Of a stretch of DNA of 64,000 nucleotides, positions 24,249-38,375 are shown piece by piece. The stretch is from assembly GCF_000741695.1 (NCBI RefSeq), contig NZ_JGZK01000002.1, positions 124,001-188,000 of the forward strand, given 5' to 3'. This DNA comes from Bifidobacterium reuteri DSM 23975 (GTDB taxonomy: Bacteria; Actinomycetota; Actinomycetes; Actinomycetales; Bifidobacteriaceae). The notes below the pieces were generated by a model. That model saw only the letters and a list, made by a program, of their open reading frames with translations. It was not told the DNA's origin and did not search any database. The position numbers and the translations under genes are program-made. How positions within the stretch are numbered: the first letter of the stretch is position 1; every line of letters starts with the position of its first letter.

Positions 24249-24278
24249 TTTACCCCGCCTGAGGAATGCACGTATGCT
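24249..24278 (+). promoter_or_regulatory. Possible promoter of the kinase cluster
   Basis: TTTACC (24249-24254) and TATGCT (24273-24278) are separated by 18 bp, about 60 bp before the kinase start. A second possible -10, TATCCT, lies 9 bp further on. The 127-bp divergent gap to adnA also contains an A/T tract (GGAAAATTTTTACC). The match is only moderate. Confidence 0.3.
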
Positions 24279-24337
24279 GGCAGTATCCTGAACACACAGG
24301 GGGAAACAATGATTCCAGCGTCAAGGGGGAGGCTCTG

Positions 24338-25735
24338 ATGTCCATTGCCATAGCACCACCGCAACTGCCAGGCTATGATGTCGTGCAGCGGCTGGGTTCC
24401 GGAGCCGCCGCAACGGTCTTCCTCTACAACCAACAGATGCCGCAACGCCCCGTCGCCATCAAGGTCAGCAATGCCGCGTTGGATCCTGCATCCGCGGTCA
24501 CGTTCCACAGAGAGGCCAACTTCATGGCCAGGCTTTCTTCGAATCCATATATCCTGACCGTCTACGACGCCGGAATCACCCCGGACGGACATGGATACAT
24601 GGTCATGGAATATGCGCCCGGGGGCTCCTATAGAGACAAGGTGCAATCGCGATCCATGGATTGCGATCAGGTGCTCGATTTGGGCATCAAACTTGCCGGA
24701 GCGCTCTTTTGCGCCCACCGCAGCAACATCATCCACCATGACATCAAACCAAGCAATATCCTCGTCACGGCGCAGGGAGTACCGGTGCTGAGCGACTTCG
24801 GCATCTCGACCGACGCCTATGACCACACCGATACCGGGTTTTCGTTGCCTTGGGCGCCGCCTGAAGTCATAGAGCATCGTTCCAACGGATCCGAATCCGC
24901 AGACATCTATTCCCTGGGAGCGACGTTGTATGCCCTTCTGGCAGGAAACTCGCCATATCAGCACACCTATCACCCGCGTACGCAGGCAGAGCTTGCCGAC
25001 CTGATCATCAACTCGCCATTGCCGCCCATACAACGACCGGATATCCCCGCGAATGTGGAATCCGTACTGGGCAAGGCGCTGGCCAAGGAACCTGATCAGC
25101 GGTACTACTCCGCGCTGGAATTCGCCCAGGCAATGCAGCGTGTTCAGCAAACCGAATACGGGCACACCACCGCGATAACGGCAGAGGGCATACCGGCATA
25201 CCCTGACGACACCACACGTCAACGTCGCACCTCAACCGATCAAGGGTCCGGACCTTCCCACCGGCATTGGGGCAAACGCACCGCGATCGCAATCACGCTG
25301 GTCACGGTCATCGCCGCCTTATGCCTGTCGGTCATCATTGCGGCACCGTCGTTCACCTCGGCGCATGCACCTCATGCGAATGCTCGGGACGCGGACATGC
25401 CGGGCAAGGAAAACAATCAGGCCGAAGATACCGTCACCGGCACCGAGAACGGTCAGATTCCCTCTCCGCAGAACCTCTCCGGCCAGTATGCCGTCGATGG
25501 TTCATCGGTGACGTTCACTTGGACGAATCCAAGCCCCCAACAGGGAGACAGCTACGCCTGGTCATTCGTACAGAACGATGCATCGGACATCGGGTCTCAA
25601 GCCACTATCACGTCGGCGACATCGATTTCGGTCGCACCTCAAGATGGCGCCCAGACCTGCATTCAGGTCTCCATCATCCGCAGCGACAGGCACATGTCCG
25701 CGAATCCGGCCATAGCCTGCGCAGTCCGCCCATAG
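24338..25735 (+). CDS. pkb2: Transmembrane Ser/Thr protein kinase, non-RD (Pkb2-type)
   Basis: This is a 465-residue Hanks-type kinase. Residues 10-270 hold the kinase domain: glycine loop LGSGAAATV, ATP-binding Lys in VAIKV, catalytic loop HHDIKPSN (Arg of HRD replaced by His), DFG in SDFGIS, and APPE. One membrane helix lies near 312-334. The ectodomain (about 375-465) resembles a single FN3-like fold with two Cys, not the PASTA repeats of PknB. The start is chosen because GGGGGAGG precedes this ATG; a 24-codon upstream extension lacks a site. It heads a plus-strand cluster known in bifidobacteria as PFNA (kinase, FN3, AAA, DUF58, transglutaminase-like). Confidence 0.9.
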   Translation: MSIAIAPPQLPGYDVVQRLGSGAAATVFLYNQQMPQRPVAIKVSNAALDPASAVTFHREANFMARLSSNPYILTVYDAGITPDGHGYMVMEYAPGGSYRDKVQSRSMDCDQVLDLGIKLAGALFCAHRSNIIHHDIKPSNILVTAQGVPVLSDFGISTDAYDHTDTGFSLPWAPPEVIEHRSNGSESADIYSLGATLYALLAGNSPYQHTYHPRTQAELADLIINSPLPPIQRPDIPANVESVLGKALAKEPDQRYYSALEFAQAMQRVQQTEYGHTTAITAEGIPAYPDDTTRQRRTSTDQGSGPSHRHWGKRTAIAITLVTVIAALCLSVIIAAPSFTSAHAPHANARDADMPGKENNQAEDTVTGTENGQIPSPQNLSGQYAVDGSSVTFTWTNPSPQQGDSYAWSFVQNDASDIGSQATITSATSISVAPQDGAQTCIQVSIIRSDRHMSANPAIACAVRP

Positions 25736-25780: not shown

Positions 25781-28700
25781 ATGGCCACATCATCGCACCA
25801 ACAGGACAGGCGGAAGAATGCCTTCATGCGGCGCATGACGCCTGCGGCGAAACAATCCTGGGCCCTTCCGGTGATCGCTCTTCTCGTACTGCTCACACTG
25901 GTCGTCGGGGCCATCATCGTAAATGCGGCAACGCGAAGTCATGTGCAATTGGATGATGGAACCGTATGGGTCACATCGCTCAATCAGCAAAAAGCCGCAC
26001 GGTTCAATGTCCGGAATCAGGAAGCGGACGCGGGCATCTCGTCATCGGCTCCACGATTTGATATCGCCCAGCATAATGGCGATACCATCCTCACCGAACC
26101 GAGACGTGCTACCGCCATCAAGGCATCCACCCTCGGCACCGAAGTCACCACTGATACGTCACCCGATATCACTGCCGTGTCGGGCGGAAGCACCCTTGCG
26201 TTCCTCAATACACGAACCGGAAACGTATGGGCCGGGCCGTCCGACCACCTCGATTCACTGGCACCGGACACAACCGCCTCGCAGATGGCGCTGGGCACTG
26301 GCGCACGCATAGCCGTGACCGACACCGGACAGGTATACGGATATCGTCCCTCAGATGGCATGGTACTCATGTTGAAGGATGCACACGCTCTATCTGCGCA
26401 GCAAATCGGATCGTTATCAGGAGGAAAACCACAACCTGCCGACAGCTTCACCGTCATCGACAACACCCCGGCAATCACATCCGGAAACACGATGATGTTC
26501 CTTGACGGCCAAGCCACCGTGGATGCCGAAGGCCCGCTCACCCTGCAGTCACCTTCCATAGACGGCAAGCAAACCGGATGGGTTGCCGCCGCATCGACGC
26601 AGGGACTCGCCATAGTCCATCTCGGCCCCAGCCACAAAGCGACATTCATCAAAACAGGCGGCACAGGCAATCCCGCCCAACCAGCGTCCATGAACAATTG
26701 CGTATATGCGGCGTGGAGCCAACAGACGAACAACTATATCCGCATATGCGCGGCCAATGGATCGCAGCGCGATATGCAGTCCCTCGAATCCGTCGACGGG
26801 ACCTCGGAATTGGTGTTCCGCACCAACCACAGGCTCATCGTGCTCAATGACGTGGTCACCGGCAATGTATGGAACGTCGCCCGCAATACCAAGGTCATCC
26901 GAATCCAATGGAACAGGATCCATACCGAGACCACCGAACAGACCAAAAGCGACAGCGATTCCGCCGACAATCATCGTGAATTCTCAAAGTCGTGTTCCAC
27001 GCAATCCGGGGAGATTCACGCCGCCGACGACCACATAGGCGCACGTGCCGGCAGCGGGCAGATTCTTGACGTGTTGCGCAATGACGAGCAGACGGACTGC
27101 TCTGTGCTCAGCATCACCAACGTGAGCGCCGTCAGCGGGGCAGCTGTCAAAGTCGCCCCCATCTATGATGGGCGCTATCTGCAATTGGACGCCTCCTCCA
27201 CGCCCGCCGGGACCGCGACATTCTCCTATGAGATCTCCGATGGTCGAGGCCAAAGCTCCAACGCCAACGTGACCGTGGAGCTCACGGACCAAGGCAATCG
27301 TGCGCCAGTGCAATCCGATACACCCCCCGAGGTCAGCATCGAGCAAGGTGCAACTTACAACGCCAATGCGTTGGGCAGCTTCACCGACCCCGACGGCGAC
27401 CCGCTGACGTTGGTTTCGGCCGTCCCGCAGAACAGCGACCAAGTGCAGGTCTCCACACGGGCAGACGGACAGCTGACGTTCAACGCCGGCTCCCAGACCT
27501 CAGGCCGAATAGGCGTCACAGTCACTGTTTCCGACGGCGAGGCCACCGGAAACGGCACGCTGTATTTCACCATCAAGCCGGCAAACACGCTGTCGGCAAT
27601 CATCGATCCAGTCGTCAAGACCGCAGCCCCCGGCATAGAGACCATCATCGACCTTGTCCCATACGTGCATGGCACTTCCGTGCAGCCTGCACAGCTCAAC
27701 CAAGTGGATACACCGAACAATGCGACGACAACCACCAACACGGCTGACATGTCGATTGCATTCACGGCCTCCGAGCCGGGGACCTATTACGTGCCTTATA
27801 CGATTGCCCAAGGATCGAATACCACCAACGGCCTGGCGCGCGTCGATGTACGACCTGTCGCCGGAGAGGCCGCGAAACCGGTCGCCGCCAACGACGTGGC
27901 GTTGCTCAGTGCCGGGAATACGGCGATTGTGGAACCTCTCTCCAACGATGTCGACCCCATGGGCGGCATACTATCCGTCACCTCCGTGAGTGCCCCGGCA
28001 GATTCAAGCATCAAAGTGGGGCTGGTGAGCCATAAGCGCGTATACATCACCGCCCGTCAGATACCCACCTCGCCCGTGCCCATCACGTATATCGCGGCGA
28101 ATGCCGCAGGCACGTCCACAGGCACCATCGTATTGCAGCCACCTGCTCTGACCGTCGCCACTTCCACTCCGAAAGCCGGCAATATCAATGCCCAAGTACG
28201 TACAGGCGGCATTGTGTCGGTGGATGTGCTGGACCATGTGGACTATCCGGACGGAACCACCATACGGTTGAAGAACAAGCTGCAATATGACAGCAACACA
28301 TTCAAAGGCCTGGCCTTCGTCTCGGCGGACACCGTTCGATATCAGGCATCACAGGATACCGGCGTCTTCCCCATCACCTATACCGTGGAAGACAACCGCG
28401 GCAATGCGGCATCGGCCACCATCACCATAACCGTGCATGCCAGTAATGCCGAAAGCAAGGCGCCTCCAACCCCGCACAACACCGAAGCTCAGGTGGCCGC
28501 CGGTCACAAGGTCCGAATTCCCATCACCCTGACCGGCATCGATGCGGACGGCGATGACGACCAGCTACTCGGATTGGGGAACAAGGCTCCCTCATTGGGA
28601 CGCATTTCGGAAATCGGGTCCGACTATCTGGTCTATGAGGCGTACCCGGATTCATCTGGCACCGACACCTTCTCCTATGCCGTAGAGGATTGGACCGGCC

Positions 28701-31700
28701 AACGTGCGCAAGCACAGATTCGCGTAGGCGTATTCCAAGGAACCTCTGATTCGGGGGTCTATGCAAGAGATGACGCCATCGCCCTGCGCCCCAATACCAC
28801 CGCCACCGTACCGGTGGCCCAGAACGACATCTCCGGAGACAATACGGACCTGACTGTCGATCAAACCATACAGGCACAAGGCGTCAGCAACGCGACGGTT
28901 CAGGACAACGCCATCACCTTCACCACGCCGGACGAATCCACCACCGCGTACATCGCCTACACAGTTCGGGACAAGGCAGGTCTTTCGGATACGGCGACGC
29001 TCAGCATCACCGTCAATCCTGAAGCCCCCATAGAGCCACCAACGGCATACGATTACCGCGTTCCTTCTGCGGCCACCATAGACAAGCGATCGGTCGACGT
29101 GGATGTCTCACAATGGATCGCCAATCCCTCGGGCACAACCGACGAGCTGGCCGTGGCGGTACATCCCTCCGCCTCGGACCATGCGCGAGTCACCGGAGGC
29201 AAGCATTCGACCATCATCTCCGTCGATCTCACTGATGAGGCTCGTGCCGTCCCCTACACGGTGACCAACACCACATACGGCATCACTTCCACCGCGTTCA
29301 TACAGGTACCGGCCTATGGCGTGTTTCCGCCCACATTGCGTCCCAAGGCGCCAGCGCTCAACGTCAATGCAGGTGAGACCATTGAAATCAACATCAATGA
29401 CTATGTGCGTGTAGGCGCCGGCAAGGAAGCGTATATCACGAACGCCGATTCCGTAAGCGCCACCAAATCCATGAATTCCGACCTGTATGTCAACAGCACG
29501 ACACTGAAGTTCACCGCAGATCAGGACTATGCCGGCCCGGCCTCCATCACCTTCACCGCAGTGGACGGCAAACACGGTTCCAAGGCGAAAATCATCAATT
29601 CGGCTGTCATCACATTGCAGATCACAGTGCTCGGGCGCACTGTCCCGCCACCCACGTTCTCCTCCCCCACCATTGATGTGGAGGCAGGTGCGACAACGAC
29701 GACCATCGACCTGACCGCTCTCACCCATGCGCCGACGGGTCTTGAGGAAAACGACAAGCAATACTCATATTCCGGCGGAATCGCATCCGGCCCGGTCACC
29801 GCCACCGTATCTTCGACCGGTCTGCTCACCATCACGGCGACCATCGACGCGGCACCCGGCACCACGGCATCCGTACCGGTTACCATCACCTACAGCAAAG
29901 GCGTCGTACATGCGGGACTCACTGTGCGGGTAGCAGTATCCACACAACCGCTGGCTCACGTCGGCAACAGGGACATCACCATCAAAGCCGGGGCTTCCGC
30001 GACAGTGGACATGCTAGATGGAGCATACAACCCCTTCCCCCACTCGGCGTTGACCGTAGTCAGCTGCCGCACAGACGATGCATCCAAACTGTTCGTGACC
30101 GCATGCGGCAAGTCAGGAATCATCGAACTGTCTGCGGCCTCCGATATCGGCGCCTCCTCGCATACGGTGCTCATCACCGTCCAAGACGGCACCAAGTCCA
30201 AGGAACGTGAGGTCACAGGCAGCATCACGGCTTCTGTCGTGGACAAGCCGGACACCCCACTGCTCTCTCCCGTCGCCGGTACCGCTCAAGACGGCGCAGT
30301 TACCCTCAGCTGGGTTGCGGGATCAGCCAACGGCAGTCCGATAACCGATTATCGAGTGCAATGGACGGGAGGAGGAAGCGGTGAACGGTCCTGTGGCGCA
30401 GTGACCTCCTGCCAGATCACCGGCCTGGCCAACGGTACGACATACTCATTCACCGTGAGCGCCAGGAACGAAGTCGGTTGGTCCGCACCATCCGTCGCCG
30501 TCACGGCCACACCCGATAAGGCACCCAACGCCCCATCGCACGTCGCCGTCGAAGGAGGCAACAGAAAAGCGACAGTCACTTGGTCCGCTCCTCAAGGCGA
30601 CTTCAGCGCAGTGGACAACTATACGGTGACTGTCACTGGCGCAGGGGCCACCCAGAGCAAAGAGACGGGTGGGACCAGCACCAGCGCAACATTCGATTTC
30701 AACACCAACGACATCACGGACGGCACTGCGGTCACTGCAACGGTCCGAGCCCACAACGCGACCAACTGGGGGCCGGAATCCGCAGCCTCGGATCCCGCAA
30801 GCATATGGGCAGACCCCGATGCCCCGACCGTCACCGTGTCCAACGTGGGCACCACAGTGACAGTGACTTCGCATGCCAACGACAACCGGAACGCGGGGTG
30901 CAAAGGCATCGACGTCATCGGCCAGCTCGTGGACACCACTGTGGACTGCAATGGCGGCAGCGCCACATTCACTGTGCCGCAAGCCGCACTCAACACCACC
31001 GAATATACGATAAAAGCAACAGTCAATCCACAACGCGATGCCACAGGCGCAACCGCGACCACCACGTTCACGCCGGCATACGCCATTCAAGCACCTTCCG
31101 ACGTGAGCACTTCGGGAGCGGCCGACCAATGCACCGTGCGCTGGAGCAGACAGGGACTTGCACAATCATTCATCGTCACGGCAGACGGTATAGGCACGGC
31201 CGAAACCACGGACGAGACATCGTATTCATTCGCTATGCAGCCTTGGGCCACCTGCAACCATGCATCTGTGCAGCAGAAACTGAACGGCACGGCGAGCGCG
31301 GCCGCAGAGGGCGGACCATCCTCAGGACAACCATATGTCCACCAAGTCCGCGCAGCCATCACCGCACCATATGAATTACGCTGGGGAGACAATGAGCACG
31401 TGGTGAATGTGTCCGGAGGCTCGGTGAACACCTTCGGCAAGGCAGCAAGCATCCAGATCATCATCAACGACCGACCATTCACATGGATTCCCGGGCAACC
31501 GTTGGATGTCACCGGTCTTCCACAGGAGACCACATACGTATGGAGCGTCAAGGTGACCGGAGACAATGGCCTGCAGGGGCTCGACAACACGGCACAAGGC
31601 GGCACGATCCAAGGGATGCGCGCTGCCTCATCAGCCGATACAGGCACCGTCCCGACCGTCAACCCCGTTGGTGTCGATGACGATGACGACCCCCATGCCG

Positions 31701-31969
31701 GCATCGGTCGGCATATCAGCGTCAAAGAACACCATAATGCAGATCACAACACCGTCACGCACAATGGCGCCACAAAGCGGTATACGACCCGACCACCAGC
31801 GACTCCGAATGAACAACCATTGTCGCTGCGTGCCTCATCCAGCGTCAGCGACCTTGCACGGCATCCATGGATTCTCGGTCTGGCGAACACACCGACAAAC
31901 GTCGGCGCAGACGGGAACATCTCCAATGACACCCCGAGCAAAACAACCCCCAGACCATCAAATCCCTGA
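25781..31969 (+). CDS. fn3: Giant membrane-anchored Ig-like/fibronectin type III surface protein
   Basis: This 2062-residue protein has a short basic cytoplasmic start, one membrane helix (about 27-49, LPVIALLVLLTLVVGAIIV) and no cleavage motif, so it is probably anchored with its bulk outside. About residues 55-380 show repeated short beta-strand segments resembling a propeller. About 400-1480 are repeated Ig/cadherin-like domains with signatures such as DPDGDPLTL and VLRNDEQTD. Two FN3 domains follow at about 1488-1577 and 1580-1685, then a further beta-rich region and a His/Asn-rich disordered end. No LPxTG motif. The gene starts 45 bp after the kinase, with AGGAAAG upstream. Reported bifidobacterial homologues have been proposed to contact host proteins; here the function is inferred only. 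Confidence 0.85.
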   Translation: MATSSHQQDRRKNAFMRRMTPAAKQSWALPVIALLVLLTLVVGAIIVNAATRSHVQLDDGTVWVTSLNQQKAARFNVRNQEADAGISSSAPRFDIAQHNGDTILTEPRRATAIKASTLGTEVTTDTSPDITAVSGGSTLAFLNTRTGNVWAGPSDHLDSLAPDTTASQMALGTGARIAVTDTGQVYGYRPSDGMVLMLKDAHALSAQQIGSLSGGKPQPADSFTVIDNTPAITSGNTMMFLDGQATVDAEGPLTLQSPSIDGKQTGWVAAASTQGLAIVHLGPSHKATFIKTGGTGNPAQPASMNNCVYAAWSQQTNNYIRICAANGSQRDMQSLESVDGTSELVFRTNHRLIVLNDVVTGNVWNVARNTKVIRIQWNRIHTETTEQTKSDSDSADNHREFSKSCSTQSGEIHAADDHIGARAGSGQILDVLRNDEQTDCSVLSITNVSAVSGAAVKVAPIYDGRYLQLDASSTPAGTATFSYEISDGRGQSSNANVTVELTDQGNRAPVQSDTPPEVSIEQGATYNANALGSFTDPDGDPLTLVSAVPQNSDQVQVSTRADGQLTFNAGSQTSGRIGVTVTVSDGEATGNGTLYFTIKPANTLSAIIDPVVKTAAPGIETIIDLVPYVHGTSVQPAQLNQVDTPNNATTTTNTADMSIAFTASEPGTYYVPYTIAQGSNTTNGLARVDVRPVAGEAAKPVAANDVALLSAGNTAIVEPLSNDVDPMGGILSVTSVSAPADSSIKVGLVSHKRVYITARQIPTSPVPITYIAANAAGTSTGTIVLQPPALTVATSTPKAGNINAQVRTGGIVSVDVLDHVDYPDGTTIRLKNKLQYDSNTFKGLAFVSADTVRYQASQDTGVFPITYTVEDNRGNAASATITITVHASNAESKAPPTPHNTEAQVAAGHKVRIPITLTGIDADGDDDQLLGLGNKAPSLGRISEIGSDYLVYEAYPDSSGTDTFSYAVEDWTGQRAQAQIRVGVFQGTSDSGVYARDDAIALRPNTTATVPVAQNDISGDNTDLTVDQTIQAQGVSNATVQDNAITFTTPDESTTAYIAYTVRDKAGLSDTATLSITVNPEAPIEPPTAYDYRVPSAATIDKRSVDVDVSQWIANPSGTTDELAVAVHPSASDHARVTGGKHSTIISVDLTDEARAVPYTVTNTTYGITSTAFIQVPAYGVFPPTLRPKAPALNVNAGETIEININDYVRVGAGKEAYITNADSVSATKSMNSDLYVNSTTLKFTADQDYAGPASITFTAVDGKHGSKAKIINSAVITLQITVLGRTVPPPTFSSPTIDVEAGATTTTIDLTALTHAPTGLEENDKQYSYSGGIASGPVTATVSSTGLLTITATIDAAPGTTASVPVTITYSKGVVHAGLTVRVAVSTQPLAHVGNRDITIKAGASATVDMLDGAYNPFPHSALTVVSCRTDDASKLFVTACGKSGIIELSAASDIGASSHTVLITVQDGTKSKEREVTGSITASVVDKPDTPLLSPVAGTAQDGAVTLSWVAGSANGSPITDYRVQWTGGGSGERSCGAVTSCQITGLANGTTYSFTVSARNEVGWSAPSVAVTATPDKAPNAPSHVAVEGGNRKATVTWSAPQGDFSAVDNYTVTVTGAGATQSKETGGTSTSATFDFNTNDITDGTAVTATVRAHNATNWGPESAASDPASIWADPDAPTVTVSNVGTTVTVTSHANDNRNAGCKGIDVIGQLVDTTVDCNGGSATFTVPQAALNTTEYTIKATVNPQRDATGATATTTFTPAYAIQAPSDVSTSGAADQCTVRWSRQGLAQSFIVTADGIGTAETTDETSYSFAMQPWATCNHASVQQKLNGTASAAAEGGPSSGQPYVHQVRAAITAPYELRWGDNEHVVNVSGGSVNTFGKAASIQIIINDRPFTWIPGQPLDVTGLPQETTYVWSVKVTGDNGLQGLDNTAQGGTIQGMRAASSADTGTVPTVNPVGVDDDDDPHAGIGRHISVKEHHNADHNTVTHNGATKRYTTRPPATPNEQPLSLRASSSVSDLARHPWILGLANTPTNVGADGNISNDTPSKTTPRPSNP

Positions 31970-32032: not shown

Positions 32033-33229
32033 ATGAGCGAGCATAGCGAACAGATCACCGACGAGACACGGCTTTCAGATGCCACTCGGATATCGGACAG
32101 CACGAGGATCAGCCGACTGCCGCATAACCCTTCCGACGCGGCACCGCATAACCCTTCCGGCACAGCACCGCGCACCCCTTCCGGCACGCCGGAAACCATC
32201 TCAGGCAAGACGGAAGACACCATGGCCCAGACCTCGGTCGTCGAAGAGGCAACGACCAGCATGCTGGAACAATCGACACCGCAGATAGCCGCGTTCCAGA
32301 ACTCCTACGACAGGCTGGTACACAGCATCGGCACCGTGGTCGTAGGCAAGACCATGCCGATCAGACTATGCGTCACCGCCCTTCTGGCCGGCGGACATGT
32401 CCTGCTTGAAGACAATCCCGGTACCGGTAAAACACAACTGGCTCGCGGACTGGCCAATTCCATATCCGCGAGTTTCAAACGCATCCAATTCACCCCCGAT
32501 CTTCTGCCATCCGACGTGGTAGGAATCACCTATTACGACCAGAAGCATGGCGAATTCGAATTCCGCAACGGGCCGGTGTTCGCATCCATAGTGCTGGCGG
32601 ATGAGATCAACCGCGCTTCCCCGAAAACCCAATCGGCGTTGCTGGAGGTCATGGAGGAGCAGAACGTCACTGTGGATGGGGTCTCGCATCAGGTGCCGCA
32701 ACCGTTCATGGTGATTGCCACACAGAACCCGATAGAGCAGCTTGGCACATACGCCCTGCCTGAAGCGCAAATGGATCGCTTCCTTATCAAGACATCGATC
32801 GGCTACCCCGGCCATGACGTATCGGTGGACCTGCTCAGGCAGATCGACGTGGTCGACCGCGCACGGACCGTCTCCCCGGTGCTCACCGGCGATGACGTGC
32901 TGCGTATGCGGGAAACCGCCACCAGCGTCTATATCGATGACTCCATCCGCGAATACATCGTCCGCCTGGTCGAGGCGACGCGCCATAACGAGCGCATCGC
33001 TGTGGGATCGTCGATGCGCGGCGCCCTGGCGCTCGCGCGATGCGCCCGAATCTGGGCCGCAGCCGATGGCAGGGCCTATGTGATACCCGATGACATCACC
33101 GAACTTGCCATACCCGTTCTGGCCCATCGCATCGTGCTTGCCCCCGAAGCCTCGTTCGACGGCACCTCCGCAGAGCGTCTGATCACGCAGATTCTCAATG
33201 ATGTGCCGACGCCCACGTTGAGCACCTGA
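32033..33229 (+). CDS. MoxR-family AAA+ ATPase
   Basis: MoxR ATPases act as chaperone-like factors with DUF58/von-Willebrand-type partners. The 398-residue protein has Walker A DNPGTGKT, Walker B VLADEINRAS and the sensor region ATQNPIEQ. The core starts near residue 80. The N-terminal 75 residues are an unusual hydrophilic extension with repeats such as TRLSDATRISDSTRIS and PHNPSDAAPHNPSGTAP. These are rich in Thr and Ser next to Arg and Asp and could be phosphorylated by the upstream kinase. GGGAGAA precedes the ATG. It is followed 11 bp later by its usual partner, a DUF58 gene. Confidence 0.93.
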   Translation: MSEHSEQITDETRLSDATRISDSTRISRLPHNPSDAAPHNPSGTAPRTPSGTPETISGKTEDTMAQTSVVEEATTSMLEQSTPQIAAFQNSYDRLVHSIGTVVVGKTMPIRLCVTALLAGGHVLLEDNPGTGKTQLARGLANSISASFKRIQFTPDLLPSDVVGITYYDQKHGEFEFRNGPVFASIVLADEINRASPKTQSALLEVMEEQNVTVDGVSHQVPQPFMVIATQNPIEQLGTYALPEAQMDRFLIKTSIGYPGHDVSVDLLRQIDVVDRARTVSPVLTGDDVLRMRETATSVYIDDSIREYIVRLVEATRHNERIAVGSSMRGALALARCARIWAAADGRAYVIPDDITELAIPVLAHRIVLAPEASFDGTSAERLITQILNDVPTPTLST

Positions 33230-33240
33230 AGGACACGGCC

Positions 33241-34479
33241 ATGAGTATTCGATCCAGCACCATGCCGCATTCATCGTCACGCATACATCCCAGGCGCATG
33301 TTCGTCAATGCGGTCAGACATATCGCCCATGCTGTCAATGCCTGCATCTCCCCGCTCGGATGGGCGGTAGGGCTGAGCGCCGCAGCCTGCCTCGGATCGT
33401 TCGCATGGCTCGGATGGCATGAGCTGCTCGCTTTCGGCATCACGGCCGCAGTGATGCTCATCGTCGCGGTCGTACTGTCCCTGGGCAACACCAGTTTCAC
33501 CGCACATATCAGCGCGTCAAATCAACGCGTGACCGTGGGTGACGACATACGCATCACCATTGATATCGACAACACCAGTGCCGCAGCCACGGCCAGCGCG
33601 CAAGGCAGCCTGCCCATCGGAGACGAACATGAATGGTTCAGCATCCCCATGCTGGCGCCACGGCAAGCCAAACGCACCGAGCTGGCATTCCGCGCCCTGC
33701 AACGCGCCGCCCTGCCCATCGGACCGTTGCACATCCGCAAAGGGGACCCCTTCGGACTGATTCGCCATGACAAACGATTGGCCGAGCGCATCATCGTCTA
33801 CATCCATCCGAAAACAATTCCGCTGCGTTCAGTGAATGCGGGCATTCCCCGCGACCTGGAAGGGCGTCCTTCCGGACAGATCGTCGATGACGACCTCGAC
33901 TTCCACGGGTTGCGTGAGTATACGCCCGGAGATGATGTGCGCAACGTGCATTGGCTGAGCTCGGCAAAAACCGGCTCCCTGATGATCCGTCAGTATGAGG
34001 CCACGAAACGCACAGACACCTCGCTGACCATCAGCGTCAATCCTGATGGATACGCCACAGCACAGGAATTCGAACTGGGGGTCTCCATCCATGCGTCCAT
34101 CGGCGTCGCATGTCTTGCACAGCATAGACCCGTCTCCACGCATGCCGGAACCAGACACGTCCGCCCGCGCAATGCGATGCTGCTGCTTGACGAAGCCAGC
34201 GGCATCGCACCGAGCCGGCAGAGTCAAGACCATCTCAATCCCGTACAGAGCACTCTGGAGCACTCGCCCGACGCCTCATGCTACATGTTCGTCGTGGGTT
34301 CTCTCATCACCGTCGATCAGCTCAAGCAAGCCACTCAGGCATTACCCCCATCAGCCAAGTGCGTGGTGCTGCAAGCCAGCGTAGGCGCATATCGCTCCAT
34401 GGAACGGTTCGCCCGCTTCACTCTGGCGACGGTGGGCGAACTGGATGACCTTCCCCTCATCATGAAGGCCCTCACATGA
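33241..34479 (+). CDS. DUF58 domain membrane protein
   Basis: This 412-residue protein has two adjacent hydrophobic helices near the N-terminus (about 38-80). The DUF58 signature, LREYTPGDDVRNVHWLSSAKTG in outline, is centred near residue 235: key residues are the Arg-Glu-Tyr, Gly-Asp-Asp and the Trp-Ser-Ala-Lys run. A beta-rich region (90-200) precedes it and an alpha/beta C-terminal part resembles a vWA-like fold. The start follows GAAGGA. Its stop overlaps the next start by 4 bp (ATGA). MoxR-DUF58-transglutaminase-like triads are widespread, but the biochemical role is not established. Confidence 0.9.
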   Translation: MSIRSSTMPHSSSRIHPRRMFVNAVRHIAHAVNACISPLGWAVGLSAAACLGSFAWLGWHELLAFGITAAVMLIVAVVLSLGNTSFTAHISASNQRVTVGDDIRITIDIDNTSAAATASAQGSLPIGDEHEWFSIPMLAPRQAKRTELAFRALQRAALPIGPLHIRKGDPFGLIRHDKRLAERIIVYIHPKTIPLRSVNAGIPRDLEGRPSGQIVDDDLDFHGLREYTPGDDVRNVHWLSSAKTGSLMIRQYEATKRTDTSLTISVNPDGYATAQEFELGVSIHASIGVACLAQHRPVSTHAGTRHVRPRNAMLLLDEASGIAPSRQSQDHLNPVQSTLEHSPDASCYMFVVGSLITVDQLKQATQALPPSAKCVVLQASVGAYRSMERFARFTLATVGELDDLPLIMKALT

Positions 34480-36965
34480 CAGCCGACATACTCTCCCGCC
34501 TATCCACCCGTCTTTTGCCCCGCCTGTCCGCCAACACCTCAGACACCGGTTCATGGGCGGACTCTCCCCAATCGGCGATCTGGACAATCGGCAACGGCAC
34601 ACGCCATGCGGCGAGCGCCACACGGCAGTCGCGAACCGCCAGCATCGGCAGTCTCGCAGTCATCGTCATCCTGATGTTGCTGTCACTGTCAAATCTCATC
34701 GACGTATACGGCGACCCTGCGGCATGGGCCATCACCGCAATCACCGCCACCCTGCTTGGCGCCGTGATCACATTCGCCGGACTGGTGCCGTCATTGCGAT
34801 TATGGTGGCAACTGGTGTTCCTCGCCGGCTCCCAGTTCCTTCTCGGGCCGATCATCACACTTCCTCACACCACCATCGCCCACGTAATCCCCAGTCTTGA
34901 TACGATAAGCCAAGGCTGGTATGCCATGCTTGGCTCCTTTACATACCTGATTTCCATCGATCCTCCCGTCGGCACCGCAGATGGCTCCTTGATGGCTGTA
35001 TGGAGCATGGGCCTTCTGCTGACTTTTCTGGCGGGATCATTCGCCGTGTCGTCCAACGCCTGGCTCTCGCTGGTCAGTGCCCTGCCATTGGCTGCGGCCA
35101 TGGCATCATGCGCGCTGTTGGGGACCAGTACCGGCTGGCATCGTGCAACCAGCGGCATCATAACCGCCATACTGCTCATTGTCTGGCTGTCGTGGCGCGT
35201 GGGATTCCTGGAATGGAAGCGATGGGTTCCCTCACTAATCATTCCGGCCCTCGCCGCCACCCTGGCGATCGCAGGAACGATAGCCATTCCGCAGCATCGC
35301 TTGATACTGCGGGATCATTATGAGCCGCCGATCAACCCGTATGACTACACCAGCCCGTTAAGCGGGATGCGTTCATACTTCAAGAACCACAAGGATGACG
35401 TGCTCCTAAGCGTCACCGGCCTGCCCGCCGGGACACCGGTGCGCCTGGCCGTGATGGACCGCTTCGATGGTTCGGTGTGGAATCTGTCCGATTCCGCCCA
35501 GGCATCGGATTCCTCCGATTATCGCCGGGTGGGCTCATCCATCGCCACAGATGAACGGGGCAAGCCATTCACCGCCACCTTCCATGTACATCAAGGGCTC
35601 GGCGACACGTGGCTACCCTTGGCCGGTGCCGCCACCCGTGTTCGATTTACCACAAGCGACGATGCCGATTCGTTCTATTACAATTCCGGCACCGATTCCG
35701 CTATTTTCGCCGCCGGCCTGCGTGCAGACATGACCTATAGCGAATCCGGCGTCCTCCCCACTGTTCCCAGCGCATCGCAAATCAGCAATGCACCAGCCGC
35801 ACACATCGATCAGCCGCCGGCCGACGATGTACCGGATGCCGTCGGCAAGTTCGCCACCGCTGTGGCCGGCGGACAGGCCACCGGTGGCGCCGCCGCCGAG
35901 ACCATCACCAAGGCACTGAAAGACTCCGGCTGGTTCTCGCACGGGCTGCAAGGCGACTACCCGTCCGCAGCAGGACATGGCAGCTATCGCATCAACGCGC
36001 TGCTCACGGGCACGGCAATGGTGGGCGACTCCGAACAATATGCATCGGCAATGGCTTTGATGGCACGCGAATTGGGCATACCCTCCCGAGTGGTCATGGG
36101 ATTCCTGCCCAAAGACAGCGACGGCAGCATTTCCAAGTCCCGTACCACCACATCGGATCATACGACCACCATTGCGTTCACCGGCAATGACGTCGCCGCA
36201 TGGGTGGAGATCAAACTGAACGACTTCGGCTGGGTGGCGTTCTATCCCACCCCCAAAGAGACCAAGGTCCCCGACGACACTCAGAATCTGGTTCCCCCAA
36301 AGCCGCAGACACTGGTGCGGCAGCCACCCGTGCCACTGACCAATCCGCTGCGCGATCAGACGCAGGCCAAAGGGCTGAGCTCACTGTCGGGCGTGGACGC
36401 CGATCCGCCGGCCAGCTCGGTTTGGGACCGCGTATGGCACATCGCCCGTCCAATACTCGTGTATGGCAGTCCACTATGGGCACTCATCCTCGTCTGCACG
36501 ATGATTCTCGCCTATAAGGCTTTGCTACTGGCCCGCGCAAGACGTCGAGGCTCTCCGAAAACGCGTGTGGCCGCGGGATGGGAGGCCGTCCGTACACTGG
36601 CCTTGCAAAGCGGCGTTTCCGTACGCGGCACCAGACGCGAACAGGCGAACGGCATAGCCCACGAACTGCATACATCGCCGAAATTGTTGCAGCAACTGAG
36701 CCGGGACGCAGATTATGTCACCTTCTCCGGCCAAGACATACCACCGGCACAAGCCGATAGGTATTGGAACCAGGTTGATGCGGCGCGTGCAGCACTGTTG
36801 CATTCGTTGCCTCGGCTGAGGCGACTCGTCACGATGCTTTCCCTACAAGGGATTGCGCGCAACGCAGTCCGGCGTGACAGTACCACGCGCGTACGCACTG
36901 CCCATCCTGCTGAGTCCCATCATGAAACGACACGGCAGGATAGGCAACAGTCGCGATTATCGTAG
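34476..36965 (+). CDS. tgm: Transglutaminase-like (TgpA-type) membrane protein, catalytic triad not conserved
   Basis: This 829-residue protein has several N-terminal membrane helices (about 50-280), a large external region, and a C-terminal helix near 658-682 followed by a cytoplasmic tail. The transglutaminase-like core is recognisable near residues 510-590: GDSEQYASAMALMARELG aligns with the usual Gly-x-Cys segment, AAWVEIKLNDFGWV with the His segment, and FYPTP with the Asp segment. In all three the expected catalytic residue is different: Cys to Ser, His to Ala, Asp to Tyr. Enzymatic activity is therefore doubtful although the fold is retained. It is translationally coupled to DUF58. Confidence 0.88.
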   Translation: MTADILSRLSTRLLPRLSANTSDTGSWADSPQSAIWTIGNGTRHAASATRQSRTASIGSLAVIVILMLLSLSNLIDVYGDPAAWAITAITATLLGAVITFAGLVPSLRLWWQLVFLAGSQFLLGPIITLPHTTIAHVIPSLDTISQGWYAMLGSFTYLISIDPPVGTADGSLMAVWSMGLLLTFLAGSFAVSSNAWLSLVSALPLAAAMASCALLGTSTGWHRATSGIITAILLIVWLSWRVGFLEWKRWVPSLIIPALAATLAIAGTIAIPQHRLILRDHYEPPINPYDYTSPLSGMRSYFKNHKDDVLLSVTGLPAGTPVRLAVMDRFDGSVWNLSDSAQASDSSDYRRVGSSIATDERGKPFTATFHVHQGLGDTWLPLAGAATRVRFTTSDDADSFYYNSGTDSAIFAAGLRADMTYSESGVLPTVPSASQISNAPAAHIDQPPADDVPDAVGKFATAVAGGQATGGAAAETITKALKDSGWFSHGLQGDYPSAAGHGSYRINALLTGTAMVGDSEQYASAMALMARELGIPSRVVMGFLPKDSDGSISKSRTTTSDHTTTIAFTGNDVAAWVEIKLNDFGWVAFYPTPKETKVPDDTQNLVPPKPQTLVRQPPVPLTNPLRDQTQAKGLSSLSGVDADPPASSVWDRVWHIARPILVYGSPLWALILVCTMILAYKALLLARARRRGSPKTRVAAGWEAVRTLALQSGVSVRGTRREQANGIAHELHTSPKLLQQLSRDADYVTFSGQDIPPAQADRYWNQVDAARAALLHSLPRLRRLVTMLSLQGIARNAVRRDSTTRVRTAHPAESHHETTRQDRQQSRLS

Positions 36966-37000
36966 AGAGCAAGGAGGCAATCTTCCAAGGAGGCAGTCCC

Positions 37001-37636
37001 ATGGTCGACTATGACACCGCAGTCGCTGCAGTTCAAGATCCCGATGCCGATCCGATACTATTGGCGAAAATCGCCTATGAGAACCCGGAGTTCGGTGCCA
37101 ATGTGGCGGTGAATCCCCGTTGCTACCCCGGACTGAAACGTTGGCTCGCCGAGTTCGGCGATGCCCGAGCCCGTGAAACGCTGTCGCAACTGGGCATTAC
37201 CGCCGATTCCATCGGTGGGCCGGTGCAGAACCGACCTGACATCGAGCGAGAAGAGGCGGAGCGTTCTGCTGTGAATTCCGCTGCAGCTGCCGCGAATGCC
37301 GCTGCGGGTGCTGCAAGTTCCGTTGCAGATGCCGCTGCAAAATCCTCCGTGAGTTCCGCCGCAAATGCCGCAAATTCCGCCACTCACGAATTCCAGTCCC
37401 AGCGTGAAGCTCAATCGCCAGCAGCCAAAGAGCCGGTGCCCACCAACCCATATGGATTCACGGTGCAGCAGGCACTGACCACCACCGACCAGATGACCAT
37501 CGCACAGATCGCACAATATGCGCCTGAACTGCGCGCCTGCATAGCCCGCAATCCCAACACGTATCCGGCACTGCTGGATTGGCTCCGACAACTGGGCGAT
37601 CCCGACATCGATGCGGCGCTGGCCTCCAGGAGGTAG
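37001..37636 (+). CDS. Variant leucine-rich repeat (LRV-like) protein
   Basis: This 211-residue cytoplasmic protein has two similar helical repeat blocks, one at each end: residues 1-66 (with LLAKIAYENPEFGANVAVNP and LKRWLAEFGD) and 150-211 (TIAQIAQYAPELRACIARNP and LLDWLRQLGD). The shared pattern, (I/L)A..(A/N)PE(F/L)(R/G)..(I/V)A.NP..YP.L..WL...GD, fits the variant leucine-rich repeat family seen in actinobacterial kinase/FHA neighbourhoods. Between them lies an Ala/Ser-rich linker (about 85-130). AGGAGG at 7 nt supports the start. It probably acts as a protein-interaction module of the cluster. Confidence 0.75.
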   Translation: MVDYDTAVAAVQDPDADPILLAKIAYENPEFGANVAVNPRCYPGLKRWLAEFGDARARETLSQLGITADSIGGPVQNRPDIEREEAERSAVNSAAAAANAAAGAASSVADAAAKSSVSSAANAANSATHEFQSQREAQSPAAKEPVPTNPYGFTVQQALTTTDQMTIAQIAQYAPELRACIARNPNTYPALLDWLRQLGDPDIDAALASRR

Positions 37637-37709: not shown

Positions 37710-38375
37710 ATGGCCATACTTCCCTATCCACCGGCACCTGAACCCGGATGGTATGCCGACGATGTGAAGACCAGCGATGTCAGCCATCCACTACCCCAGC
37801 CAATACGCAAGCAACAGCCGAACAAAACCCCGCTGGCAGACGGGGTGCAGCCGAACGGCATCATGCGGCCGAACACCGCGAAGCAGCCAGCCGGCACCGC
37901 ACAACCAGCCGGCACCGCACAACCAGCCGGCACCGCGCAACCAGCCAGCATCGCACAACCAGCCAGCTCTGCGCGGCCAATCATCACGGCACAGCCCAAC
38001 CATACTTCACCACCGAGCAGTGCCGCACAACCATCAGAAGCACCCCACCGATTCGTGCTGCATAACGACACGACGGGTCAAAACATCACAGTGAGCCGTA
38101 ATACCCTTCTCGGACGCAAACCGGCGCTGAACTCGTTGCAGGGCTTCACCATCGCACGAATCGACGATCCGACGCGCACGACCTCCCGCACCCATGCGAC
38201 GCTCAGCATCGACGACCAAGGGCGGCTTTGGATTGAGGATTGTGACTCTTTGAACGGCACCTACATCATCCGGGGCAACCATGAAACCCAAGTGCCAGCG
38301 GGCACACCGATGCGTCTCGATATTCCGGCAACGGTCCGTCTGGGCGACCTCTTCTTCAAGCTGACCCAAATGTGA
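37710..38375 (+). CDS. FHA-domain phosphothreonine-binding protein
   Basis: This 221-residue cytoplasmic protein has an N-terminal Pro/Ala-rich disordered half with five six-residue repeats of the type QPAGTA, and a C-terminal FHA domain (about 112-221). Phosphopeptide-binding residues are visible: the Gly-Arg in LLGRKP, Ser-Arg-Thr-His in TSRTHATL, and Asn-Gly-Thr in LNGTYI. AAGGAC precedes the ATG. It is the last gene of the cluster and is the natural reader of threonines phosphorylated by the kinase at the other end. It converges on rpoC. Confidence 0.9.
   Translation: MAILPYPPAPEPGWYADDVKTSDVSHPLPQPIRKQQPNKTPLADGVQPNGIMRPNTAKQPAGTAQPAGTAQPAGTAQPASIAQPASSARPIITAQPNHTSPPSSAAQPSEAPHRFVLHNDTTGQNITVSRNTLLGRKPALNSLQGFTIARIDDPTRTTSRTHATLSIDDQGRLWIEDCDSLNGTYIIRGNHETQVPAGTPMRLDIPATVRLGDLFFKLTQM
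37887..37976. repeat. 18-bp tandem repeat inside the FHA gene
   Basis: Five consecutive 18-bp units begin CCAGCCGGCACCGCACAA. The first two are identical, the third differs at one base, and the last two have diverged. The unit is a multiple of three, so copy-number change would lengthen or shorten the disordered linker without shifting frame. Confidence 0.85.

Follow-up and report, generated by a model that had tools for sequence, protein, structure and literature searches.

In a 64,000-nucleotide stretch of the genome of Bifidobacterium reuteri DSM 23975 (contig NZ_JGZK01000002.1, positions 124,001 to 188,000 of the forward strand; the window, here, is this whole stretch), the core genes of the PFNA cluster lie in the order pkb2-fn3-MoxR ATPase-duf58-tgm, and it is the last of these, tgm, encoding a transglutaminase-like protein from which all three catalytic residues have been lost, that is our subject (Table 1). 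The position of tgm, at the end of the core, matches that of the published PFNA-cluster Tgm, and the same gene order has been described before (PMC6803598; PMC8430577; PMC10688814), while the place of the kinase in the cluster, and its membrane anchor, match those given for Pkb2 (PMC8430577). The fn3 product combines bacterial Ig/cadherin-like repeats with two FN3 domains, as recognized by Pfam, and has one N-terminal hydrophobic segment (hydrophobic windows begin at residues 22-35 only). The duf58 and tgm genes overlap by 4 bases. The first-pass annotation of this DNA, made from the letters alone, had the open reading frame, strand and coordinates of tgm right, and the gene is a single open frame of 829 amino acids.

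Table 1. Coordinates of the PFNA core genes, of the parts and sites of tgm, and of the two genes downstream (numbering of the window)
Feature	Coordinates	Strand	Evidence
pkb2, Ser/Thr protein kinase, first PFNA cluster gene	24266..25735	+	Pfam Pkinase, 131 bits
fn3, 2062-amino-acid predicted surface protein	25781..31969	+	Pfam Big_9, Cadherin_5, fn3
aaa-atp, MoxR-type AAA ATPase	32033..33229	+	Pfam AAA_3, 215 bits
duf58, DUF58 protein	33241..34479	+	Pfam DUF58, 32.5 bits
tgm, predicted membrane protein, transglutaminase-like domain without triad	34476..36965	+	Open reading frame, Pfam, AlphaFold2 model
N-terminal helical bundle of tgm, residues 53-270, predicted transmembrane	34632..35285	+	AlphaFold2 helices, hydrophobic runs
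TgpA-like domain, residues 292-597, predicted extracytoplasmic	35349..36266	+	
His501 of GHG motif	35976..35978	+	84/84 genus copies, 132/134 FN3-linked loci
Ser519, column of catalytic Cys, codon TCC	36030..36032	+	Alignments
Glu520-Gln521, adjoining the dead Cys site, each invariant	36033..36038	+	84/84 genus copies
Ala574, column of catalytic His	36195..36197	+	Alignments
Trp576-Val577-Glu578	36201..36209	+	Trp and Glu each in 84/84 genus copies
Tyr590, column of catalytic Asp/Glu	36243..36245	+	Alignments
Last hydrophobic helix and C-terminal helical domain, residues 665-805	36468..36890	+	AlphaFold2 helices, hydrophobic runs near 656-670
LRV_2 repeat protein, downstream of tgm	37001..37636	+	Pfam LRV_2, 134 bits
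FHA-domain protein, downstream of tgm	37710..38375	+	Pfam FHA, 32.7 bits

As to the nature of the protein, the sole Pfam match of Tgm is to PF01841 (Transglut_core; residues 459-591, 62 bits against a cut-off of 23), placing it by homology within this superfamily. In an AlphaFold2 model, the kind of check that the first-pass annotation had proposed, the domain takes the fold of the periplasmic domain of TgpA, and a profile search retrieved TgpA as well, although a search of PDB sequences with Tgm alone returned nothing useful. No match to PF11992 (DUF3488) was found in Tgm at an E value of 0.001, while several near homologues are annotated with it. The predicted topology includes about eight N-terminal membrane helices, a domain outside the membrane (residues 292-597) and a C-terminal helical domain inside, in the cytoplasm.

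The motifs around the three catalytic positions start at residues 517, 572 and 589, making the sites in question Ser519, Ala574 and Tyr590. When aligned with seven Cys-bearing actinobacterial relatives, Ser519 falls into the column of the catalytic Cys, Ala574 into the column of the His, and Tyr590 into a column occupied by Glu (FEPTP), and in L317, another Cys-bearing relative, the triad lines up with that of TgpA (Cys, His and Asp; PDB 6g49). The first-pass reading of Ser and Ala at the Cys and His sites thus holds. Its reading of Tyr at the third site holds as well, but the residue replaced was named as Asp, and this column in the Cys-bearing relatives is mostly Glu (71 Cys-His-Glu versus 4 Cys-His-Asp among 75 Cys rows). 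None of the features of an active enzyme, a Cys opening the core helix, a His in the HAW(V/P)E strand or an acidic residue in the F-x-PTP strand, is present. The only Cys residues of Tgm are at positions 212 and 674, with none between 275 and 640, leaving no alternative Cys in the outside part from which a different active-site set could be built, and a Cys nucleophile elsewhere in Tgm was rejected on this ground. The three other PF01841 genes of the same genome, as read from their motifs, all keep the triad: VCQDYA/HAWVE/LDPT in L001, GYCQHYA/HAWVE/FDVT in L002 and GVCLSYA/GHAW/IDPT in L004.

The loss is neither a matter of chance nor restricted to this strain. A whole-protein search of 112 genomes of the genus, with the copy in the window counted, produced Tgm matches in 89, of which five were only weak and fell in a long frame like that of the paralogue L002, leaving 84 copies (30 loci from the original protein search, including the window copy, and 54 added to them). 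At the Cys site these read Ser in 74, Asp in five and Gly in five; at the His site they never read His (Glu in 34, Thr in 31, Ala in 14 and five others once each); and at the Asp site they read Tyr in 62, His in 10, Arg in four, Phe in four and Asp in the remaining four. Cys and His are thus absent from all 84 copies and Asp from 80, and all three triad residues are gone in 80 of 84. Likewise, in a set of 121 near kin (the query plus the top 120 of 896 homologues), the first site is always Ser, and the other two are never His and never Asp. At the same time, His501, Glu520, Gln521, Trp576 and Glu578 are invariant in all 84 genus copies, bearing out the earlier remark that the residues around the sites are well kept. 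The codons for Ser519 belong to two families: of 77 named Ser-motif loci (four of them outside the family), 59 use AGY and 18 use TCN. The ratio of nonsynonymous to synonymous substitution (dN/dS) for the core, taken over 64 near pairs that are not mutually independent, has a median of 0.125 and a maximum of 0.21. The census invariants, the two Ser codon families and the low dN/dS together indicate that the triad is gone while its surroundings and the gene itself have been kept. The loss of the triad in Tgm is strongly supported, and the proposal of the first-pass annotation that Tgm is a pseudoenzyme is supported by the TgpA-like fold, by the Cys-free segment and by purifying selection in a conserved lineage from which the catalytic residues have disappeared, evidence that comes from sequences and a model.

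Nor is the loss peculiar to Bifidobacterium, a possibility that was considered and rejected, as Cys-less relatives span a wide actinobacterial clade. These were sampled by searching 198 genomes of the order and 296 of the phylum with profiles and 148 of the class with a protein, in addition to 78 named loci found with the patterns MVGDSEQY and FDG[NS]VWNL, a set that is by its construction biased to Ser. Among relatives outside the genus, the prevailing motif around the Cys site is G[DN][SADEG]EQ[YF]A. The Cys column was readable in 317 loci, several of which repeat one gene, and 75 of these are Cys-bearing and 242 Cys-less. All 75 Cys-bearing loci retain the His and the Asp/Glu, but both are retained in only 24 of the 242 Cys-less loci, suggesting that the Cys was lost first and the His and Asp later. 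The three triad columns are invariant in 25 Cys-bearing loci. In 59 distant FN3-linked Cys-less loci they have entropies of 1.77, 2.92 and 2.40 bits (Cys, His and Asp, respectively) and rank 47th, 14th and 30th in variability among 85 columns, so that in these loci they behave as ordinary columns, not as the most variable ones, while G517, E520, Q521, W576 and E578 are among the most conserved. Asp-His-Asp is found at the triad positions in nine of the 59 FN3-linked loci outside the named set (L185, L186, L201, L213 and L178, for example), and these might hold a metal site. Three other Cys-less relatives, L312, L316 and L313 (class-level genomes G693, G654 and G626), read Ser-His-Asp, Ser-His-Glu and Ala-His-Asp, with no FN3 gene detected; the first two could have a serine-type triad.

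Whether the Cys was lost once or twice depends on sampling. Trees were built with the three site residues masked wherever the motif script located the motifs, and the root was set on the Cys rows, the triad being, to our knowledge, general in PF01841. The tree of 90 rows (107 rows less 17 removed for thinning, the long row L002 among them) placed the Cys-less L155, L170 and L223 apart from the main clade, requiring two changes, with one change in 24% of the bootstrap trees. In the tree of 103 rows, from which seven of the 90 were removed (three the same genes as longer added loci, four thinned) and to which 20 were added, class-level rows among them, a single branch (support 98/89) has all 73 Cys-less rows on the same side. 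Five of a set of 20 Cys-bearing loci, missed by the motif script (L268, L274, L278, L280 and L281), are in neither tree, though they are part of the neighbourhood count below. The clade of FN3-linked loci is firm in both trees (61 rows at 99/97 and 64 rows at 99/99, respectively). A single loss is thus likely, and, judged from these sequences, the Cys loss is a property of a large actinobacterial clade that holds the gene in the window.

The loss goes together with a particular gene neighbourhood, which was compared for 178 loci with wide flanks, 153 of them Cys-less and 25 Cys-bearing (chosen rather than drawn at random: 20 long, strong PF01841 matches, with five relatives from the class or phylum level). 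An FN3-type gene, as detected with the single FN3 protein of the window as the query, is found upstream in 134 of the 153 Cys-less loci and in none of the 25 Cys-bearing ones, in a count that includes some contigs twice under two handles (L141/L172 and L112/L228, for example). If the named set is excluded, the numbers are 59 of 75 versus 0 of 25 (Fisher p 4e-13, kinship not corrected), and the presence of an upstream open reading frame of at least 1000 amino acids (59 of 75 versus 2 of 25) agrees with the FN3 search. All 25 Cys-bearing loci have MoxR and DUF58 genes upstream, in the same MoxR-DUF58-transglutaminase order, with Cys-His-Glu intact. Within the genus, fn3 matches were found in 84 of 112 genomes, the same ones that have tgm, as read from two lists of matching genomes, and 28 have neither gene; of 20 such genomes listed, eight are under 2.0 Mb. 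The fn3-moxR-duf58-tgm order is kept far beyond bifidobacteria, where a Pkb2-like kinase is encoded downstream on the same strand at 15 loci; at L215 and at L172, which coincides with L141, it lies upstream.

Since Tgm is Cys-less in all 84 genomes, exactly those that possess fn3, it is likely to bind or hold a partner rather than to carry out chemistry, and a binding or scaffolding role, as proposed by the first-pass annotation, fits both the gene linkage and the co-occurrence seen in these genomes. We lean, with modest confidence, toward Tgm being a non-catalytic binding module of an FN3-MoxR-DUF58 system that holds or senses a partner outside the membrane. The likeliest candidate for this partner is the giant FN3 protein, encoded three genes upstream. 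The outside domain would keep the old substrate groove as a grip, the inside domain would couple to DUF58 and the MoxR ATPase, and these two would assemble, retain or release the FN3 protein, with Pkb2 tuning their action on it; Pkb2 has been reported to phosphorylate the MoxR protein (PMC6803598). A number of points weigh against such a role. Conservation of the groove could serve folding alone, and FN3 and Tgm may co-occur since both serve MoxR-DUF58, without touching each other. Ser519 is nearly fixed across the genus, more than the loss of catalysis by itself would call for. Upstream of 19 of the 153 Cys-less loci no FN3 gene was detected, and, while some of these are cut by contig ends (L197, L226 and L231, for example), others are uncut, and therefore FN3 is not the partner of every Cys-less relative. 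Finally, positive selection has been reported for the membrane region of Tgm (PMC6803598), suggesting that other parts of the protein matter too.

This last point is also in line with an account that we regard as possible, though rather unlikely, of the transglutaminase-like domain as a mere structural spacer whose groove binds nothing, leaving the work to the membrane helices and the inside domain. Residues in the membrane and C-terminal parts are indeed conserved (P164, R275, R279 and F750 are invariant in 52 sequences of the wide clade, and W702 is present in at least 90% of them), but the invariance of E520, Q521, W576, E578 and H501 over the genus, and their place among the most conserved of the 85 columns in the 59 distant loci, exceed what a spacer would need. 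A pocket with new, Cys-free chemistry, such as Ser519 activated by His501, or a metal site in the Asp-His-Asp relatives, seems improbable to us. The prevalence of Ser519 in the genus, encoded by two codon families, the invariant His501, and the Ser-His-Asp, Ser-His-Glu and Asp-His-Asp combinations described above all speak for it, but Ser519 is replaced by Asp or Gly in 10 of the 84 genus copies, 55 of the 59 FN3-linked loci outside the named set are not Ser, yet His501 stays, and the His-equivalent column is never His in the genus census. As the Cys-bearing L317 and L320 also have GH, this motif is not a new element, and a new Ser519-His501 dyad is not supported by the sequences compared. It is hardly credible that Tgm is still active as a transglutaminase or cysteine protease, as its label in the literature implies, through a catalytic Cys in another part of the protein: active-site migrations are known in the superfamily (PMC10318531), but not only Tgm but 81 of the 121 near-kin sequences (query counted; best 120 of 896) have no Cys within residues 275-640, and in 32 of the other 40 one Cys aligns with residue 455, which is not near the site in sequence. 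Decay of tgm, with the losses due to drift, has next to no likelihood, as, although a few orthologous stretches contain an in-frame stop or a split match, the frame is open here, gene order and co-occurrence are conserved over many families, and the dN/dS values led us to reject a relic gene. In L103/L348, as assembled, the stop falls inside the core, past the His column but short of the Asp column.

A number of known systems provide points of comparison. TgpA of Pseudomonas aeruginosa (PDB 6g49, 6g4h), whose purified domain was subjected to a transglutaminase assay (PMC3507681), retains the Cys-His-Asp of which Tgm has none. Protein 4.2 (EPB42), FBXO21 and ARMC3 are known inactive transglutaminase-like or papain-like proteins, but these are eukaryotic and of a different architecture, and their losses were probably independent of that in Tgm. 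The actinobacterial MoxR-DUF58-transglutaminase triplets share the gene order of Tgm, but in them the Cys-His-Glu is intact and FN3 is undetected. One suggestive parallel is LapG, by which the giant adhesin LapA is set free; LapG is a bacterial transglutaminase-like cysteine protease, and in its C135A mutant LapA remains uncleaved and the strain is hyper-adherent (PMC3032545). Tgm may be genetically paired with a giant adhesin in a similar way: fn3 lies upstream and is present in the same genomes, and an adhesive role of FN3 is cited within PMC6803598. In contrast to Tgm, which is predicted to be membrane-bound and lacks the Cys-His-Asp triad conserved in LapG, the latter is a soluble periplasmic protease of another family, controlled by cyclic di-GMP via LapD. 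By this analogy, and as a lead, Tgm would be a natural form of the dead C135A state. A more daring version, and one we consider unlikely, is that an ancient actinobacterial relative of the membrane transglutaminases, having lost its cysteine once, turned into a clamp that grips the neighbouring Ig/FN3 protein and is itself loaded or released by MoxR-DUF58 under kinase control, amounting to a LapG-like, non-cutting adhesin switch in bifidobacteria and many other actinobacteria.

The PFNA cluster has been studied as a host-communication operon of bifidobacteria, with one of its five core proteins described as an enzyme, and has been reported in 77 of 99 species, compared to 84 of 112 genomes here. 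In the accessible portions of PMC6803598, PMC8430577 and PMC10688814, which describe an enzyme in a single-genus operon, the triad loss is not mentioned, and open-access literature searches returned no title or abstract opening on the triad loss in Tgm. The sequences compared here speak against the published descriptions of Tgm as 'presumably a cysteine protease' and of the 'PFNA operon only in bifidobacteria,' as given in those portions, the fn3-moxR-duf58-tgm block being wider. What is new is how far the loss extends: the Cys-less lineage is conserved, widespread among actinobacteria and linked to a single giant protein that is predicted to lie at the surface. If Tgm is a pseudoenzyme, then a hunt for crosslinking or protease substrates would be misdirected, and the question becomes one of the binding partner. 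The clade also presents a tree-ordered series in which the Cys was apparently lost before the His and Asp. Cys-bearing paralogues occur within the same order and class, so the birth of a pseudoenzyme becomes directly testable. We know of no client of MoxR-DUF58 in most bacteria, and the wide block offers a candidate in the FN3 protein.

Some smaller observations concern the arrangement of the block. The interval between tgm and the LRV_2 gene (36966-37000) does not hold a protein phosphatase gene; in the published order of B. longum GT15, prpC follows tgm. Four homologues (P0023, P0024, P0032 and P0070; 825-1221 amino acids) carry DUF58 and the transglutaminase core in one chain, which hints at contact between DUF58 and Tgm, though these may be frame-shift artefacts of genes overlapping by 4 bases. 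Two Cys-less transglutaminase-like loci per genome are found in three cases, L187/L188 (G291), L178/L179 (G289) and L302/L303 (G618). All six of these loci have FN3 and DUF58 upstream, and MoxR was detected in five, so that the whole block seems to be duplicated or moved together.

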